DNA of 35,740 bases from Chrysochromulina tobinii (taxonomy: Eukaryota; Haptophyta; Prymnesiales; Chrysochromulinaceae), in assembly GCA_001275005.1 (NCBI GenBank), contig JWZX01002239.1, positions 1 to 35,740 of the forward strand, read 5' to 3'. The notes below the pieces were generated by a model. The model made no database searches. It was not told where the DNA came from and was given only the letters and a program-made list of their open reading frames with translations. Below are positions 5,658-29,937 of the stretch, piece by piece. Position 1 is the stretch's first letter. Each line of letters starts with the position of its first letter. The translations under genes and the position numbers were made by a program.

Positions 5658-6505
5658 CGCACATGACGCACGGCCGCAACCGGCCGCTACGCAAGACGAG
5701 ATGCCGCGGCACCGGAGGGGAGCGGGACTCGCGTCTCGGAACAAGAGCGGAATGTATCTGGGTGACAGATTAAATCTGCAAGATTAAATCTCCCGGATCC
5801 AACGGATAATGCAGGTGACAACACGCGCCGTCGACCCGTCACCCTCGCGACCCCTGACGCCTGACGACCCGGGCATGCACGCATGCTGCACCGGCTCGAC
5901 GGACGCGGCCGGACCGCCCGCCTGAAAGGTGAAAGCCTCTAGCCCCTGTAGCTAGCCGCTCACGCCCTCACCGACTGCGGGCGGGGCGCGCGGTCAGATG
6001 GCGCTGCCTGGACTGATGCTTACACTGCTGTACTTTTGACTGACGCTTAGAGTTTACGACCGGACCGGACGCATCTGACGCTTACGAGTTACGTGTACGG
6101 GGGGATCCGGAACTGCTATCGTATTATTTCCCGACACTGCTCACTGGGCGCTCCCGTCGCGCTACCGCGGCCGGCCTGATTGGTTATTGCACCTCGGCTT
6201 TTCTGGCTACACACAACACGCGAGCTGGAAATCTGGTCTCTGATATCGTGTAGGACGGTGGACACGATCCATTTGAGGAAATCTCATCGTCGTTCTCAGA
6301 GTGGGGATCCGCCTGATGGGGGATGCAATCAAGGAAGGTCATCGTAGATTCGTAGTTCTCTCGGTGGGGATCCGCCAAACGGAATGTCTAAAGAGGCAAT
6401 TGCTCGCCACTTTCTTACGCTCTGCTCCATCAGCAGAGCGCTCATCAGGTTGTGCTCGCGCTCGTCTCTGATCGTTGGCCGTGAGGAGCTGCGCCGGCGC
6501 CAACG
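5658..6505. other. Gene-free stretch between convergent genes, with a small duplication
   Basis: The stretch holds the 3' flanks of the prolyl hydroxylase (+) and the chromodomain gene (-). GTGGGGATCCGCC occurs twice, at 6301-6313 and 6364-6376, each preceded by a GTTCTC-containing segment, which suggests a degenerate 63-bp tandem duplication. A near-duplicate GATTAAATCT occurs at about 5767-5790. The only frame over it (minus, 6184-6378) merely translates this duplication. No gene was seen. Confidence 0.5.
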
Positions 6506-16667: not shown

Positions 16668-17253
16668 ACTTTCACATGATTAACTATTGTTTAACGGCTT
16701 TCGCAACCAAGAAGCCATGCTGCGTGTCCATGGTACTCCATACACGAATCTCCAATCTGACACACTTCTCCCATCAGAGTTGATACGTATACACATGTGA
16801 GACTTACCATTTTGGATTTTGGTATCTTCCCGACCGGACGGCGTCACGACGCGTCGACCGGTACACGCCTACACCGCTACCGACGGTCAACTCAAGGGTT
16901 AGTGTACGTGGTAAGTTCCGTCGGTCGGTCGGCTCGTCGCGGCTGGCGGGCGCTCGGGGGCCCCGAGCCCGTTCCCCCGCCCGCCCCCGGTTCCGCCCGT
17001 CGCCGGGTGGCGGGTGGCGGGTTCCATTGTGGCGCGGCGGGGCGGCCGCGGGCGCAGGGCGCACCCTGAAACTGCGGAAGATCTCAGAGTATCCGGATAC
17101 ATCTAGCGAAGTTAGAAGACCGCCGGGGGGAGCCGGGACACACACGATTCACACTCATTACTTGTGTTGATTGAGAGGTGCGGAGGGTGAGAGCGCGGGG
17201 GGACCGCGACCCTGTACCTATTCACAGGTCATTCCCGCTACATTCGAAGGTCG
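16668..17253. promoter_or_regulatory. Upstream region of the myosin gene, with a C-run tract
   Basis: The 586 bp before the myosin ATG contain four C-runs at 16968-16988 (3, 5, 3 and 5 C), whose complement fits a canonical G-quadruplex, followed by three GGG runs at about 17004-17021. No gene or TATA box was seen. Confidence 0.45.
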
Positions 17254-20200
17254 ATGTCGCAGGCCGTGTGGCTCGAGCGCCAGAGCGGTCTCTTCGCGGC
17301 AGGCAGCCTGCTGGACGCTGGCGACAGCGAGTCCTCCGCAGTCGTTGAGGTCGACGGCGCGGTCGAGCACGCGCCCACGGCGCGCGTCCTCCCGCGCAAC
17401 GCCGAGGACGCGGGCGAGGCGGATGACATCGCGACACTCGTGCACCTGAACGAGCCGTGCATCGTGCACGCGCTCGCCCTGCGCCACAAGCGCGACGCCA
17501 TCTACACCAGCTGCGGAAGTATCGTCGTAGCGGTCAACCCGTGGCGGCGGCTTCCGGACCTTACCTCGCCGGAGACCCTCCAGCGCTACCTGGCTGCGGA
17601 GAAGGGGCTCGCGCCACACCCGTTCGCCGTCGCGTGCGACGCGTACGGCGGGGTACTTCGCGGCGAGCGTCAGTCGATCCTCGTCTCGGGCGAGTCAGGC
17701 GCAGGGAAGACGGAAACGACCAAGATTCTGCTTCAATGCCTCGCTGCGAGCGCCCGCGGCGTGACAAGCGACGACGACAAGGGCGCCGCCAGCGCCTTCA
17801 GCGCCAGCGGCGTGCAGGCGATGCTGCTCGAGGCCAACCCGATCCTCGAGGCATTCGGCAACGCCAAGACTCTTCGCAACCACAATTCGAGCCGCTTCGG
17901 CCGGTGGGTTGAGATCGGTTTCGACTCGCGCGGCGCCCTCTGCAGCGGCGCTGTGCGCACGTATCTGCTCGAAAAGTCGCGAGCTGTGGCGGTACCGTCG
18001 AGTGAGCGCTCGTTCCACGCCTTCTACCAGCTGCTGGCGAGCGGTGGCGTGCTGCGTGCCGCCGCGGAGGAGCACGCCGTGCGTCTCCCCGCCTCCGCCT
18101 CTGGTTGCCGCTACCTTAGCGGCGGCGTCGCCCCCAACGCGCCCGATGCACCGTGCGTGCTCGCGCCGGGCATAGACGACGAGGCGGACGGCGCACAGCT
18201 CGTGAAAGCTTTGAGCGTCATGGGCCTAGGAGGCGAGCTGGGCCGCATCGCGCGCGCGCTCGCGGCCTGCCTGCTCCTCGGCAACGTCAGCTTCTCCACG
18301 GCCGCCGCGGCTTCGTCCACTTCGCTCGACGCCGATGCGGCCACTTGCGAAGCCGCGGCTGTGGCGGACACCGCCTCGCACGCGGCACTCGAGGCCGTCG
18401 CCGGCGCTCTTGGCGTCGCGCCCGCCGCGCTCGCCGCAGCGCTCACCGTCCGCGAGCTGCAGCTGCGAGGGGAGACAATGCGCTCTCCGCGAACGCCGTG
18501 CCAAGCCGCTGAGGCGCGCGATGCGCTCGCCAAGGCGCTCTTCGAGGGCCTCTTCCGTCTCGTCGTGCGCGGCATCAACGCGTGCCTGCAATCGCCTGGC
18601 GCCGCACCGGCGCCGCCGGGAGCGTCGGTCGCTTCCTCGGGCGCGTCGTGCGGCGCGGGCTCCGCTGATAGCGCTCATGTGAGCGCTCCGTCGGACGTTG
18701 GCGCTCCTGTATGCCGCATCGTGGGCGTGCTCGACATCTTTGGCTTTGAGACGTTTGCGACCAACGGCTTCGAGCAGCTCTGCATCAACTACGCCAACGA
18801 GAAACTGCAATGGCAGTTCAACGCCGTCACCTTCGAGGCACAGGCGCGGGAGTACGAGGCGGAGGAGGTGCCGTGGACTGCAGGCGAGCGCTGATGACCA
18901 CTGATGACCACTGATGATCACTGATGACCACTGATGGCCACCGATGGCCACTGATGACCACGGATCGTGTGGACTTCAGGCGAGCACACGTCGAATGGGG
19001 CGACGCTCCAGCTTCTCGAGGGGCGGATCGGTCTCCTCGCACTGCTCAACGAGCAGTGCCGTCTTCCGCGCGGCGACGACGCCACCTTCGTGGCGGCCGT
19101 GCGCTCTACGCATGCGAGCCATCCGTCGCTACGCGCTCCCAAGCTGCCACAGACCGTCTTTGTCGTCGCACACTACGCGGGACAAGTGGCCTATTCGTCC
19201 GGCACATTCGTGGCTAAGAGCCGCGACGCGCGCCCCGAAGACCTCGTGTCGCTCCTTGCGCACTCCGCGTGCGCCTTCACCCGCGCGCTCCTCCTCACGG
19301 ACGCTGAAGTGGCCGCCAACGGCGCGCCCATTTGCGGCGGCACAGGCGGCGGCGGCGGTGGCGGCACTGGTAGCTCGTCGCTTGGTCTGCAATTCAAGGC
19401 ACAGCTGGGCGTGCTGCTCGAGACGATTGGTCGCGGGGCGTCACACTACGTGCGATGCCTGACACCCAACCATGCCAAGCTCGCCGGTGTCTTCGAGCCT
19501 CTGACTGTGCTGCACCAGCTGCGCTGCTCCGGTCTGATCGACGCCGTGCGCGTGGCACGCCAGGGCCACCCGTCGCGCCTGACCCATCATGCCTTTCTCG
19601 AGCGCTACCATTGCCTCGCGCCCCACGCCGCCATCGCAGCTTCGTCCGCTGCCGAGGCGGCGGAGGCCATAGGGGCGCAGGACGCCTCGCCGGAACGCGT
19701 GAGGCGCCGGGCGGGTGCCCTGATCGACGCGCTGCGAGCGTCAGCCTCGCTCGGCGCGTCGTGGGCCGAGGCCGCCGCCGCCCTAGGCCGCACCAAGGTG
19801 TTCCTGCAGACGGCGCAGTACCGAGCGCTTGAGGCGCGCCGCGCCGCCACTCTCTGCAGCGCCGCCCTCGACTTGCAGCGGATGTGTCGCGGCCGGGCAG
19901 GCCGGCGCCGCCTCGCCCTCGCGCTCGCGGCGGTGCGGTGCATCCAGCGCACTGGCCGTGGGACGATCGGACGCGCCACACTCCACGCGTTGCGCCGTGA
20001 GCGCGCAAGCTCGCTGCTACAGTCCGCGGCGCTCGGCTGGCTCGAGCGGCGCCGGCGCGCCGCGGCTCTCATGGCATCGTCTGCGGCGTCCCGCATCGTG
20101 GCCGTTTGGCGCTGTCACCGTGCCCAGCGTACCTTCCACGTGAAGCGTCACGCGGCGGTCGCGCTGCAGTGTGCGGCGCGCTGCCGCACAGCGCGCGGCG

Positions 20201-22747
20201 CACTCAAGGGTCGCCGCAAGCAAGCGCGCGACCTCGCGGCGGCAGCGCAGAAGGCGGCACAGGACGTGGCGGCGCTGCGGGCTGAGAATGCGACGCTGCG
20301 GGCGGCACTGAGCCGCGCCGATGATGCGGCGGCCAGAGCGACGATCGCGGCAGCTGCGGCTGCGACGGCTGAGCCGGAGGAGAAGGAGAAGGTGAAGGTG
20401 GAGGCACTGGCCAAGGCGGAAGCAAAGGCGGTCACGGACTCATCTGAGCTCTGCCAGCTTCGCTCGGCTCTGCAGGAGCAGCAGGCAGCAGCAGAGTTGT
20501 TCACATTAACTCTGCAGGAGCAGCAGGTCGAGTTGGCCAAGCTACGGGCCAAGCTAAGCGAGCAGGAAGCATCGAGCTCTCGGCCGCCCCTGATGCCGCC
20601 CGCGTCGCCCAAAGCGACGGTCCCAAGCGCTCCGACGCAAGACAAGGAGAATTCGTCAAGCGCTCCGACGCAAGACAAGGAGAATTCGTCAAGCGCTCCG
20701 ACGCAAGACAAGGAGAATTCGTCAATTAATTCGTCGCCCAGCGCGCGCTCGCTCGGGCTCGTGCTCTCACCAGCTCTCGCAACGGCGTCGGCGTCAGCCG
20801 CTCCGCCCCCGCAAGGCACACGAACCGTCGAGGGCAGCTTAGCGCGCGCGCTGGCGGCTGAGGCCGAAGTGAGCCGGCTCAAAGCTCAACTTCGGATGCT
20901 GCAACGGGAGGTCGACGGTCGCGGCTCTGACAAGGTGGTGGCGCTCAAGACGGCGCTCAACGGCCAGGTCCGCCAGCTCGAGGCGGACGTGGCCTCCGAG
21001 CGGCGGCACGCGGAGCTTGCGGCGGCCAAGGTCGCCGCCGAGGCAAGGGCAGAGCAAGCCGAGGAGTGTGTGCGTCGTCAGGAGCGGATCACGGCCAAGC
21101 TGCTCAAGGAGCTACGCGAGACCAAGACGGCGCTCGGTGCGCAGCAGTGTACTGCCTCCATGCTGCTGCGTCTGCGTGGCGATCTGCTTGCGGCCATCGA
21201 GGGCGCCGTCACGCGCCTGGGCACGGTGAAGGCAAGCCTGGACAGTGCCCTTGCGCCTGCGGCGGACCGTTTCGCGTCGGCGGTACTTACGGACGCACAC
21301 CAAGCGGAAGAGCACGTGGCGGCTGTCGAAGAGGCTGCCGCCGCCGCGTGGGCCAACGCTGAGGCGGCTGAGGAACGCACGCAGCGCGCCGAGAGGCTTC
21401 TGGAGACGCTTGAGCAGCGCGTTGTAGCACAGGCGGGCCTGGTGGCCGCGCTGCTGCGCCGCGCGTCGGACCGCTCGGACCGCTCGCCCGATGCACTGTC
21501 GACCCGACGCATGGGGAAGAGAGCAGGGGATGCGGATGCGAAGGTGGACGGCGCAGAGGTGGAGGACGCAGAGGAGAAGGCCCTCGAGCCGATGTCGCCT
21601 TCGCCAGTGGGGGTGCTTGACCATACCCTTATTACTTCGCCCTTTGCAGCTGCGGCTCGCCGGTTGAGTGCCGCGTTCACTCCAGCGGCCATCAGCATGG
21701 TGCGCGTCAGCTCGGTCACCAGATCGCTCAAGGGAGTGATCGGGGTTAGCTTCGGCGCCTGCGATGACGACGACGGCCGCACTGGCCGTGCAGGCGGCGG
21801 TGAGTGCGGTGGCAGCGGCGGCCGCTACGTGGCAATGCTCGAGGACGAGCTACGATGCACCCTGGATCACCTCGAGGCACAGCGAGAGGTGAGCCCTGGG
21901 CCAGTTGCATGCTGATTGCGCTCTGATTCCGCCTGATTGCATCTGATTGCGCCTGATTGCGCTCTGATTGCGCCTCTGGAGCTCGCAGGTGAGCCGTGAG
22001 CTCAGCCACGAGCTTGCGCGTCTCGCCATGCCCGGCGCCCTTCCATTCCCACCGCCGCCGACAGCCCACGACACGGACGTGCCGGCGACGGACGTGGACG
22101 TGCCCGATGATGTAGCCTCGCCCCTCGCATCGCCGATAGAGGGCACCCCCATCGCTCGCAAGCTACATGCTGCTCTGATGGAAGATTGGCGTGACGGCGA
22201 GGGGCAAGGCGCCTCGTCCGCTGACAAGGCGGCGGCTCTGGCGGCAGCGGAGGCGGCGGCAGACGCTCTGATCTTTGGGGACCGGGGGCTGCCAACCAAG
22301 CTCCCAGCCGAAATGCAAGATGCAGAAGCCGCCGCAGATGCGCTCCTCAAGGCCGATCTCGCGTTTGATCTCGCGCGCCAAAGCCAAGGCGGCGGCGGGA
22401 GCCATTCGAGAGCCTTTGCAGCGCAGCCTCCCAGCCCCGTGCGCAAGCCCGAGACAGTGCTTGACAGCATCAAGCACCAGGCGGCGGCCGCGGCTCTGCT
22501 CGACGATCTTCGGAACGAGACGCTCAAGAGCACGCGCCTTGAGAAGATCATCTCGAGGCTCGTGGGCGAGCTGCGGGCAGCCAAGGTGCATGCGGCATCG
22601 GCCAGCCTCGGAGGAGCCGAGAGCGCTCTGGCCACCTTCAAGCAGCTCCACTCACGGCTCGAGCAGCAGCTCCTGGACAATAGCGCAGCGGTTTGCATGC
22701 TGCAGGGCGAAGTGCGCCGCGGGCTTGAGGCAGTCACGACCGCATAG
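17254..22747 (+). CDS. Myosin heavy chain, three exons (17254-18883, 18980-21888, 21989-22747)
   Basis: Splicing gives 1765 residues. The motor (about 55-825) has the P-loop GESGAGKT (146-153), switch I NAKTLRNHNSSRFG (203-216), switch II DIFGFE, the actin-binding PHYVRC-like SHYVRCLTPN, LRCSGLIDAVRVARQG and the end motif TKVFLQ. No SH3-like N-terminal domain is evident. About five IQ-like motifs (first: LQRMCRGRAGRRR; about 835-960) would bind light chains or calmodulin. The tail is Ala/Glu-rich coiled coil interrupted by a Ser/Pro segment with three perfect SAPTQDKENSS repeats, then a second coiled-coil region across exon 3. No known cargo domain (FERM, MyTH4, DIL) was found, so the class cannot be assigned; it probably belongs to a protist-specific class. 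Exon joins were chosen because each restores conserved or helical sequence in frame. Confidence 0.9.
18884..18979 (+). other. GC-AG intron with flanking direct repeats and 10-bp internal repeats
   Basis: The 96-bp myosin intron begins GCGAGC and ends CTTCAG. GTGGACTGCAGGCGAGC (18873-18889) and GTGGACTTCAGGCGAGC (18969-18985) straddle the two junctions exactly 96 bp apart. The interior is seven 10-bp units, consensus CTGATGACCA, at 18891-18960. Removal joins VPWTA to GEHTSNGATLQLLEG in phase 1, as expected for a myosin motor. Confidence 0.88.
20626..20724 (+). repeat. Three perfect 33-bp tandem repeats in the myosin tail
   Basis: Units at 20626, 20659 and 20692 are identical at the nucleotide level and encode SAPTQDKENSS three times. 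Perfect identity implies a recent expansion or conversion. Each unit holds a Lys-Glu-Asn (KEN) triplet. Confidence 0.95.
21889..21988 (+). other. Intron with flanking direct repeats and 10-11 bp internal repeats
   Basis: The second myosin intron is 100 bp, GTGAGC to CTCGCAG. AGGTGAGCC spans both junctions (21887-21895 and 21987-21995), exactly 100 bp apart. Six units with consensus CTGATTGCGC, some with one extra T, fill 21912-21973. Removal is phase 0 and joins EAQRE to VSRELSHEL. Confidence 0.88.
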
Positions 22748-28311: not shown

Positions 28312-29937
28312 TCACTTGAGCCGCCACGCGGCGACCATCATGTCTTCGAAGTACTCGTCTGTCTCGAAGAGCGGGGAGATCCACTCGTACCTGTCGGCGA
28401 ACTCTCGAAGGGTCACCTCGTCGTCGAGGTGGGCGGGATCGTCGCGCCACGGCGCGAGGAAGGCCAGCGCCACGTCTTCCTCCGTGAGCACCCCTTCGTG
28501 CACGCCAATGTGCCGTGAAGCGTCGTATCGGGCGGCCAGGTGCTCGGGTTTGACCTGCTTCTTGTTCGCGTCCTCCTTGAGCGCCGCGTAGGCGGAGCGC
28601 ACGAGGCGCACGCGCTCGGGTCCCATGGGCGGCCCGCGCACCGCGAGTGTGAACTCGTCGAACGAGAAGAGAGGCCCTTGCTCGGTGCCACGCCCAGGGC
28701 CACGTGGTGTCGTCGCTGGGGGCTCGAACGCGTCGACGAGCGCGTTGAGATCGGCGTCGCTCAGGGTGACGCGACACAGAGTGGCAAGCGACAGGAGACC
28801 ATTGATGAAGAGCTTGGCGGGCAGCGTGCCCGTAGGATAGCCTCCCTCCTTGTGCGCCGCGTACCAGCGCGCATCTGCAGCGCGCAGAGCGTCATACCCG
28901 CCAGCTTCCCGTTCCAGACCCTCCCGGAGCCGTCCAATGGTATTTGTCACTCGACCACTCGCGCGCCCGTCGGAGCGCGGCGCGCCCACGAGCGCGCGGT
29001 GGAAGTCTTCGGCCGGCACCGAACCCGAACGCGCAAGGTCGCACCGTGCAAAGAGCGCGGCGAGCACCTGATGCGAGCGTGGGACGACTGATGAGGAAGG
29101 CAATCAGAAGGCGATGAGAAGCAATGAGATGGCAAGCCGATGGCAAGTAGATGGCAAGCAGATTGGAAGCAGATGAGCGCGCACCTGATGCGAGCTCGGT
29201 ACGGCGCCCCTGCCAGGGAAATCGTAATTGAGCTTGCGCCCGATGGTGTCGACAAAGGGGCCCAAGAGGACGCGGCCCGAGCGGTGCGGGTCGCACTCGG
29301 CGAAGTAGGCGCGCGCTGCTAGCCCCGCTCCGAGGTGGCGCGTGCCGGTGGCCTCCACCTCCCCCAGCCGGCGGCGAAGCGTCTCCTCGAGACGTTCGAT
29401 GTAATGGACCTCGACGGGGACGGCGAGGGTCCACGCCTGCCCGATGACGCGCTTAGCGCGCAACTCAGCCTCCTCCGCCTCGAGCTCCTGCGCCGAGGGC
29501 GGCTTATCCCCGTACAGACGCTCCGCCATCCAGACCGCCTGCGCCGGCCCTTCGTAGGATCCGAGCTTGTCGTCGTCCTTCTTGGGTGCCGTCGCGGCGC
29601 CGCTGAGCTTCGAGCGCCAGCGCTCGGCCTCAACGACGGCACCGAACGTGTACTCTTTGTCTTTGTTCTTGGGGACTGGCTTCGGCCCATCCGAAAGCTT
29701 GAACGCGTCGCGCCAACCTGAACCGGAGCCCGTGAGGGATGAGGAGGCGGGGGCGGGAGCGGACGCCGCGGGCGCTGGAGCGGACTCCCTGTAGCGGTTA
29801 AGAGACATGGATGCCACCTTGCTGCTGGCGTCGGAGACGATAACGTTGCGCACCGGCGTCGCAGGACCGATTGATCGCCCACCGCCAGCCGAGCTGCCAA
29901 AACCAATCACTCCACGACCAGGCGCCAGCGAGGGCAT
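28312..29937 (-). CDS. Calcyphosine-like EF-hand protein, two exons (29937-29185, 29067-28312)
   Basis: Splicing yields 502 residues. The N-terminal third is Ser/Ala/Gly-rich. EF-hand-like units are visible at YFAECDPHRSGRVLLGPFVD and LFARCDLARSGSVPAEDFHR, both with Asp at loop position 1 but imperfect later ligands, and degenerate ones at LSDADLNALVDAF and GVLTEEDVALAF. The end REFADRYEWISPLFETDEYFEDMMVAAW follows the pattern of the calcyphosine group, where a (D/F)YY-x-x-(V/I)S-x-x-(I/F) helix precedes D-x-x-F-x-x-M(M/L)-x-x-AW. Such proteins are frequent in cilia and flagella. It lies 150 bp upstream of the EF-hand/TIR-like gene on the same strand, so two EF-hand genes stand in tandem. Exon phase is 0. 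Confidence 0.8.
29068..29184 (-). other. Intron with flanking direct repeats and 11-bp internal repeats
   Basis: On the minus strand the 117-bp intron starts GTGCGC and ends CATCAG. GCACCTGATGCGAGC (plus-strand reading) occurs at 29064-29078 and 29181-29195, spanning both junctions exactly 117 bp apart. Four 11-bp units (GATGGCAAGCC, GATGGCAAGTA, GATGGCAAGCA, GATTGGAAGCA) lie at 29128-29171, with more degenerate ones beside them. Removal joins PSSHQ to VLAALFARCD in phase 0. Confidence 0.88.

Follow-up and report, generated by a model that had tools for sequence, protein, structure and literature searches.

The window (the whole stretch of DNA analysed, 35,740 nucleotides) is contig 1126 of a draft assembly of 53.15 Mb in 2253 contigs. 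It contains a myosin gene on the forward strand that is interrupted by two short predicted introns, each carrying a tandem array and bounded by direct repeats. The features of this gene are as follows.

17191..18883, + strand: myosin exon region before intron 1; open reading frame (ORF) with Myosin_head profile positions 2-357
18873..18889, + strand: left copy of the 17-nt duplication, covering the donor; matches the right copy at 16 of 17 positions at offset 96
18884..18979, + strand: predicted myosin intron 1, GC-AG, 96 bp; copy-register junction CAG|GCGAGC ... TTCAG|GCG; in-frame stops; frame and Myosin_head restored on removal
18891..18965, + strand: 10-bp array, CTGATGACCA repeated 7.5 times, with the branch-site-like motif CTGAT; Tandem Repeats Finder, 89% matches
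18969..18985, + strand: right copy of the 17-nt duplication, covering the acceptor; same 16 of 17 match at offset 96
18980..21888, + strand: myosin exon between introns 1 and 2; ORF with Myosin_head profile positions 415-649
21887..21895, + strand: left 9-nt copy AGGTGAGCC of intron 2; sequence match
21889..21988, + strand: predicted myosin intron 2, GT-AG, 100 bp, with an array of the CTGATTGCGC type at 21912-21975; ORFs end and start inside it, and the frame is restored on removal
21987..21995, + strand: right 9-nt copy AGGTGAGCC of intron 2; sequence match
21989..22747, + strand: last myosin exon, to the stop codon; ORF, with the frame open after excision

The initial annotation had described intron 1 as a 96-bp GC-AG intron whose junctions are covered by a 17-nt repeat with one mismatch and whose interior consists of seven 10-bp units in perfect register. 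The repeat is borne out: GTGGACTGCAGGCGAGC (18873-18889) and GTGGACTTCAGGCGAGC (18969-18985) are identical at 16 of 17 positions, with a spacing of exactly 96 bp. Since CAG|GCGAGC is the sole AG|G(T/C) in the copy register, the predicted GC-AG intron at 18884-18979 also stands. As for the interior, Tandem Repeats Finder reports a period of 10, so that the register is as described, but the copies are not perfect (7.5 copies, 89% matches). The array closes the reading frame: an ORF at 17191-18894 ends inside and another at 18958-21915 begins inside, and both contain Myosin_head (profile 2-357 and 415-649, respectively). When introns 1 and 2 are both excised, a single open frame of 1786 codons runs from 17191 to the stop at 22747; when intron 1 alone is excised, 11 stops remain. 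After removal of intron 1, one Myosin_head match (155.5 bits) spans the junction, and 119 of 121 homologues compared (P0001 plus the 120 matches listed out of 340) align across it. The two that do not cross are P0004, which is the window's own exon, and P0001, which starts in the intron. Elsewhere in the myosin coding sequence, a 33-bp repeat (SAPTQDKENSS) occurs in about three exact copies at window positions 20624-20725, and tandem repeats of 52 and 114 bp are found near the contig start, at 418-698.

Two further candidates of the same plan lie on the reverse strand of the window.

29068..29184, - strand: probable GT-AG intron, 117 bp, with an 11-bp array; 19-nt copies at 29177-29195 and 29060-29078; frame open across the excised junction
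6313..6375, - strand: possible GC-AG intron, 63 bp, with the tail TTGATTGCATCCCCCATCAG; 27-nt copies at 6350-6376 and 6287-6313

No Pfam match was obtained in the two ORFs beside the first of these, and the second is the least certain of the four window introns.

The sequences that make up intron 1 are dispersed through the genome. An exact dimer of the unit has 153+213 genome matches (366, overlaps counted) and none for the reversed control, and three CTGAT motifs at short spacing have 7755+8692 matches (overlaps counted) against 15+31 for the control; because overlapping matches are counted, these numbers exceed the number of arrays. The tail CTGATTGCNNNCCTCATCAGG has 473+478 matches (951), again with none for the control. 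In the arrays that were read, the step from one CTRAT to the next is exactly 10 bp in 731 of 873 cases. Many sequence-similar candidate introns thus recur at unrelated sites, which is one criterion for introners. For example, at one locus (L017) nearly the same element is found with four different duplicated targets inside 3 kb. Scaled up to 53 Mb, the 27 arrays in 163.7 kb read would amount to about 8,800, a rough estimate because the sample is small and uneven; the genome may contain several thousand to ten thousand CTRAT arrays in total. Arrays of one contig resemble each other no more closely than they resemble those of other contigs (permutation value 0.48), and local spread is therefore unsupported. 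Near-identical arrays at matching spacings occur in two contig pairs, C1238 (L006) with C114 (L008) and C101 with C235, which are perhaps two haplotypes or a duplication. Viral carriage was considered and rejected, since the unit and tail patterns each have 0 matches in viral_contigs, a collection that may omit records very close to this genome. The host itself has 58 light-harvesting complex (LHC) profile matches in its genome and is therefore a photosynthetic alga. The LHC at locus L055 is closest to chains named 'Light harvesting protein', iFCPI-7 and FCPI-7 (285, 272 and 238 bits; next, 171), which we take to be haptophyte structures, and the host is probably a haptophyte.

The sample combined the first 8 kb of 16 contigs selected by number with the window, the loci that the searches had given, and 60 short stretches; the search-returned loci and these 60 stretches, which were picked for arrays, are biased towards arrays. 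From 175 CTRAT chains, 161 arrays were retained after dropping 11 that lay too near an end and 3 duplicates. Chains are present in 7 of the 16 contig starts. Their density is very uneven (L039-L054): L040 and L049 carry 8 CTRAT blocks each, and 9 of the 16 starts have none. Each array was scored by the best ungapped repeat between its two 90-bp flanks (match +1, mismatch -2), with array-like matches set aside both here and in the mismatched control.

The initial annotation had expected junction-spanning repeats to exceed chance, and they do. A flank repeat scoring at least 12 is found at 90 of the 161 sampled arrays, compared with 4.0 expected from mismatched flanks; at thresholds of at least 20 and at least 30 the counts are 50 against 0.4 and 25 against 0.0. 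The 16 contig starts and the window alone give 15 of 27 arrays at the threshold of 12, and among 59 control arrays that lack the motif on both strands, 5 reach it. With array-like matches set aside, 71 of the 161 arrays have no flank repeat of at least 12. The 90 duplications have a median length of 24 nt and a range of 12-64 nt (89 at 12-45 nt, one at 64), and 63 are at least 20 nt long. Note that detection required a score of 12, so that repeats scoring lower are not in the set and the short end of the size distribution is open; the copies of window intron 2, for instance, are 9 nt. After extension, which enters the arrays in compound loci, the median identity of the duplications is 0.967, and 30 of the 90 are identical. 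No target-site consensus is seen in base counts. Compound loci of the form copy-array-copy-array-copy were found at L011, L018, L033, L063, L089 and L110, as if such introns had been hit or expanded more than once. One array, L049:2693-2729, lies on the strand opposite to its neighbours, with a duplication of 22-25 nt and no in-register AG|GT; it is possibly an insertion that is no intron. Coding repeats swamped a scan of the window and the 16 contig starts for all direct repeats with an in-register AG|G(T/C), and it was set aside: without CTRAY arrays it gave 71 against 29 for the reversed-motif control, and with arrays 13 against 1.

The duplications are rich in potential splice junctions. 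In a first set, AG|GT or AG|GC stands in register in 29 of 40, where shuffling of the copies predicts 8.2; the commonest tetramer is AGGT. In the larger set, such a junction is present at 57 of 90 and absent at 33. The predicted donors at these 57 sites are GT at 44 and GC at 13. Both predicted splice sites fall in the duplication at 45, the acceptor falls in the element at 9 and the donor falls in the element at 3; the figure for the acceptor is a lower bound, since chance can also place an AG within the duplication.

The consequences of removal were examined with a retrained codon model at those clean sites (no neighbouring array) that have an in-register junction. With 120-nt flanks, the frame is continuous after removal of one period at 22 of 24 such sites. 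In particular, at the 11 sites whose period is not divisible by three, it is continuous at all 11 after removal and at none without it. The strand carrying CTRAT is the coding strand at 23 of the 24. Other flank lengths give similar numbers: with 75 nt, the frame is continuous at 23 of 26 sites (10 against 0 of the 11 whose period is no multiple of three) and CTRAT is in sense orientation at 24 of 26, and with 180 nt the corresponding values are 15 of 16, 8 against 0 of 8, and 15 of 16. Over all 90 sites, 57 of which have other arrays in their flanks, the 120-nt test gives 52 continuous and 45 in sense orientation. An earlier, small codon model discriminated weakly: of 44 clean sites, 30 were continuous with the period removed and 21 with it left in. 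Ten excised translations were also chosen from 88 junction-spanning segments for Pfam searching. A domain spans the excised junction in six of them (myosin, C2, an EF-hand pair, TTL, PI-PLC-Y and Arm), although the TTL match extends only about 49 residues downstream of the junction and 5 upstream; in the other four, one domain stops short of the junction and three translations have no match.

CTRAT matches the usual branch consensus. In the period-10 arrays (69 arrays, 614 units), the mismatch to the consensus is 4.0% in the CTRAT half of the unit and 8.2% in the other half, and it is lowest, at 2.5%, at the A of CTRAT. This fits constraint on the motif, short of proof of branch-site use. We infer that CTRAT would serve as the branch site and that the arrays would be spliced out.

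Proteins of relatives give a view of the same sites elsewhere. P0001, an ENA protein that is 99% identical to the window myosin, begins at a GTG inside intron 1 and carries the variant residue of the right copy; therefore, intron 1 is present there too. The same protein departs from the window myosin after ...RGTIGR (window position 19976), which may reflect an extra intron absent here or a misassembly. In P0005, a myosin relative at 57%, protein comparison indicates a frame open across the intron 1 site. For the gene at L004, proteins of relatives at 95-97% run on into the same intron; another, at 87%, starts within an array, and one at 44% is uninterrupted. Another relative, P0128 (74%), starts with MITDGLPHCMQ directly before a site that is uninterrupted in this genome. 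The back-translation of this peptide has 6 exact genome matches and 36 within one mismatch, with 0 for the control, and the element family therefore seems to be present in that relative at another site. As judged from proteins only, at 44-74% identity, P0005 and P0127 seem to be without inserts present here, and P0128 to have one absent here. This suggests that relatives may lack some of these introns and carry others. The initial annotation had also suggested that the intron-generating process is active, which is plausible, given that 30 of the 90 duplications are still identical and that protein read-through suggests differences in site between relatives.

Short repetitive DNA appears to have been inserted in many genes of this genome, copying a stretch of the target that enables its removal as an intron. 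We regard it as probable that intron 1 is one copy of a dispersed, introner-like minisatellite, which was inserted blind to splice sites and kept where it could be spliced. The element would be a head-to-tail array of units of about 10 bp, each with a CTRAT able to act as a branch site, and part of the copies would carry, after the array, a tail that brings an acceptor of its own (CTGATTGCNNNCCTCATCAG). It would insert into exons, and probably elsewhere too, irrespective of splice sites, with a target duplication that is mostly 12-45 nt long. If AG|GT or AG|GC in the sense direction lay in the duplication or at its edge, the spliceosome would remove exactly one copy plus the array, so that under this proposal the protein would be unchanged and the insert would survive as an intron. 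Blind insertion with retention where splicing is possible would explain the mixed origin of the splice sites, the orientation of the arrays and the restored frames. Of the two models in the initial annotation, this corresponds to the first, an introner-like element that gains a splice site through its target duplication. That model is well supported, since the units and the 3' tail are common to many loci, different sites duplicate different targets, and removal restores frame and domains. The interpretation in the annotation as a whole is partly supported.

As to the chemistry, array DNA may be captured or copied at staggered breaks in a process that involves microhomology. Microhomology of at least 3 nt is found at flush junctions in 13 of 32 cases on the left and 9 of 27 on the right, against 5% in simulation, although these sets include the compound loci L105, L110 and L116, which inflate the counts. 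No clear terminal inverted repeats are seen: those of at least 7 nt occur in 4 of 52 (1.9 expected) and of at least 8 nt in 1 (0.25 expected). Microhomology at the array ends together with the lack of clear inverted repeats favours break repair or template switching over cut-and-paste transposition, and the filling of staggered breaks with captured or copied array DNA is in our view the most likely route. A more far-reaching reading, which we put forward tentatively and would not quite back, is a splice-site-blind intron factory, in which a minisatellite of branch sites spreads through repair or template switching, leaving 12-45-nt duplications and microhomology at both ends. Each insertion would bring both a branch-site array and a duplicated stretch, so that an AG|GT target would yield a clean intron at once. 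If true, this would be mass intron gain without a transposase and without splice sites carried by the element.

The strongest competitor, which we nevertheless think unlikely, is retroposition, in which the RNA of an excised intron would be copied into nicked DNA by reverse transcription, starting at its 3' end (...CATCAG), in a LINE-like manner. It predicts target duplications of variable length, together with a 3' end that is fixed and a 5' end that varies. The duplications are indeed variable, the acceptor is borne by the element at 9 or more of the 57 predicted introns, the tail occurs at 951 places, and the genome has 26 RVT_1 matches, 22 of them over the cut-off. However, the CATCAG tail is found at the right junction of only 10 of 60 elements; most end inside the array and are thus without a fixed end, which is unusual for a mobile element. 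Moreover, both splice sites are counted in the duplication at 45 of 57, and microhomology occurs at both ends. Since some copies do have a fixed tail and acceptor, we keep retroposition as a candidate.

Far less probable is the second model of the initial annotation, in which an AG|GT proto-splice segment was duplicated in tandem, with subsequent local growth of the 10-bp repeats by slippage. Introns are known to arise by tandem duplication (PMC3443670), in-register AG|GT is enriched in our duplications, and the compound loci described above would suit such a process. However, local growth does not account for units and a tail that are common to many loci, and the element interiors are hardly closer to their own exon flanks than expected (a score of at least 12 in 2 of 23 clean loci, 1.0 expected). 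Still more doubtful are ordinary DNA-transposon introners, with a transposase, terminal inverted repeats and a short target-site duplication, whose interiors are repetitive by happenstance. Such introners are known to derive one or both splice sites from the target (PMC9860276), but here there are no clear inverted repeats and no target consensus, and the duplications are mostly 12-45 nt rather than 3-9 bp. Finally, an assembly artefact driven by repeats, conceivable in a draft of 2253 contigs, can be practically dismissed, because removal of one period restores frames and domains, and because P0001, in another record (ENA), starts at intron 1's own GTG with the right-copy residue, and P0124 and P0126 both extend into one intron of a different gene, in records that may come from independent samples.

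The bulk origin of new introns is still argued; here, the insert, the duplicated stretch and the AG|GT used can be read directly. With arrays in such numbers, insertion preferences, microhomology and the decay of splicing signals are measurable in one species. The structure also suggests that an insert may require little beyond a tandem branch-site array to turn into an intron. Among the titles listed in the literature searches, none concerned tandem-repeat introners in haptophytes. The Emiliania huxleyi genome paper reportedly mentions repeat-rich introns, and an earlier haptophyte description may exist.

In the introners of PMC9860276, target duplications may supply one or both splice sites, the mRNA length is usually unchanged, and GC donors occur. 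Duplications of 3-9 bp are given for earlier-described families, terminal inverted repeats are reported in 72 of 177 families, and the one Chrysochromulina MAG family shown has 4-bp duplications; the terms 'tandem repeat' and 'direct repeat' are absent from that main text. Our candidates resemble these introners in being dispersed, similar introns with target-derived splice sites and GC donors, but differ in having duplications mostly of 12-45 nt, no clear terminal inverted repeats and a 10-bp minisatellite body. In Daphnia, where introns arose during the repair of staggered breaks, the exon-matching repeats measure 4-12 bp (PMC4202315). These introns share with ours the direct repeats at intron ends, the internal repeats and, as proposed here, insertion at breaks, whereas the repeats here are longer and the inserts belong to a shared element family, which the available portion of that paper does not describe for Daphnia. 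Amoebophrya introners (PMC7789003) have direct repeats of 3-5 nt, inverted repeats of 8-20 nt and mostly non-canonical sites, and the same paper mentions MITEs with direct repeats of 10-15 bp. Like ours, these introns recur and carry direct repeats across their exon borders, but ours have no clear inverted repeats and have predicted GT/GC-AG sites. In tandem genomic duplication of an AGGT-containing segment, AGGT in both copies provides both splice sites (PMC3443670), as it would here, although the stretch that separates our copies does not replicate the local exon. A survey of 213 intron borders found direct repeats of 4-30 bp, with a mean of 11.4 bp (PMC11782384); our introns also have direct repeats at their borders, but that survey covers all kinds of introns, with copies that mostly differ, whereas ours have longer, near-identical copies and a single element family. 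What is new relative to known introners and repair-derived introns is the combination of a minisatellite body, long duplications and no clear inverted repeats.
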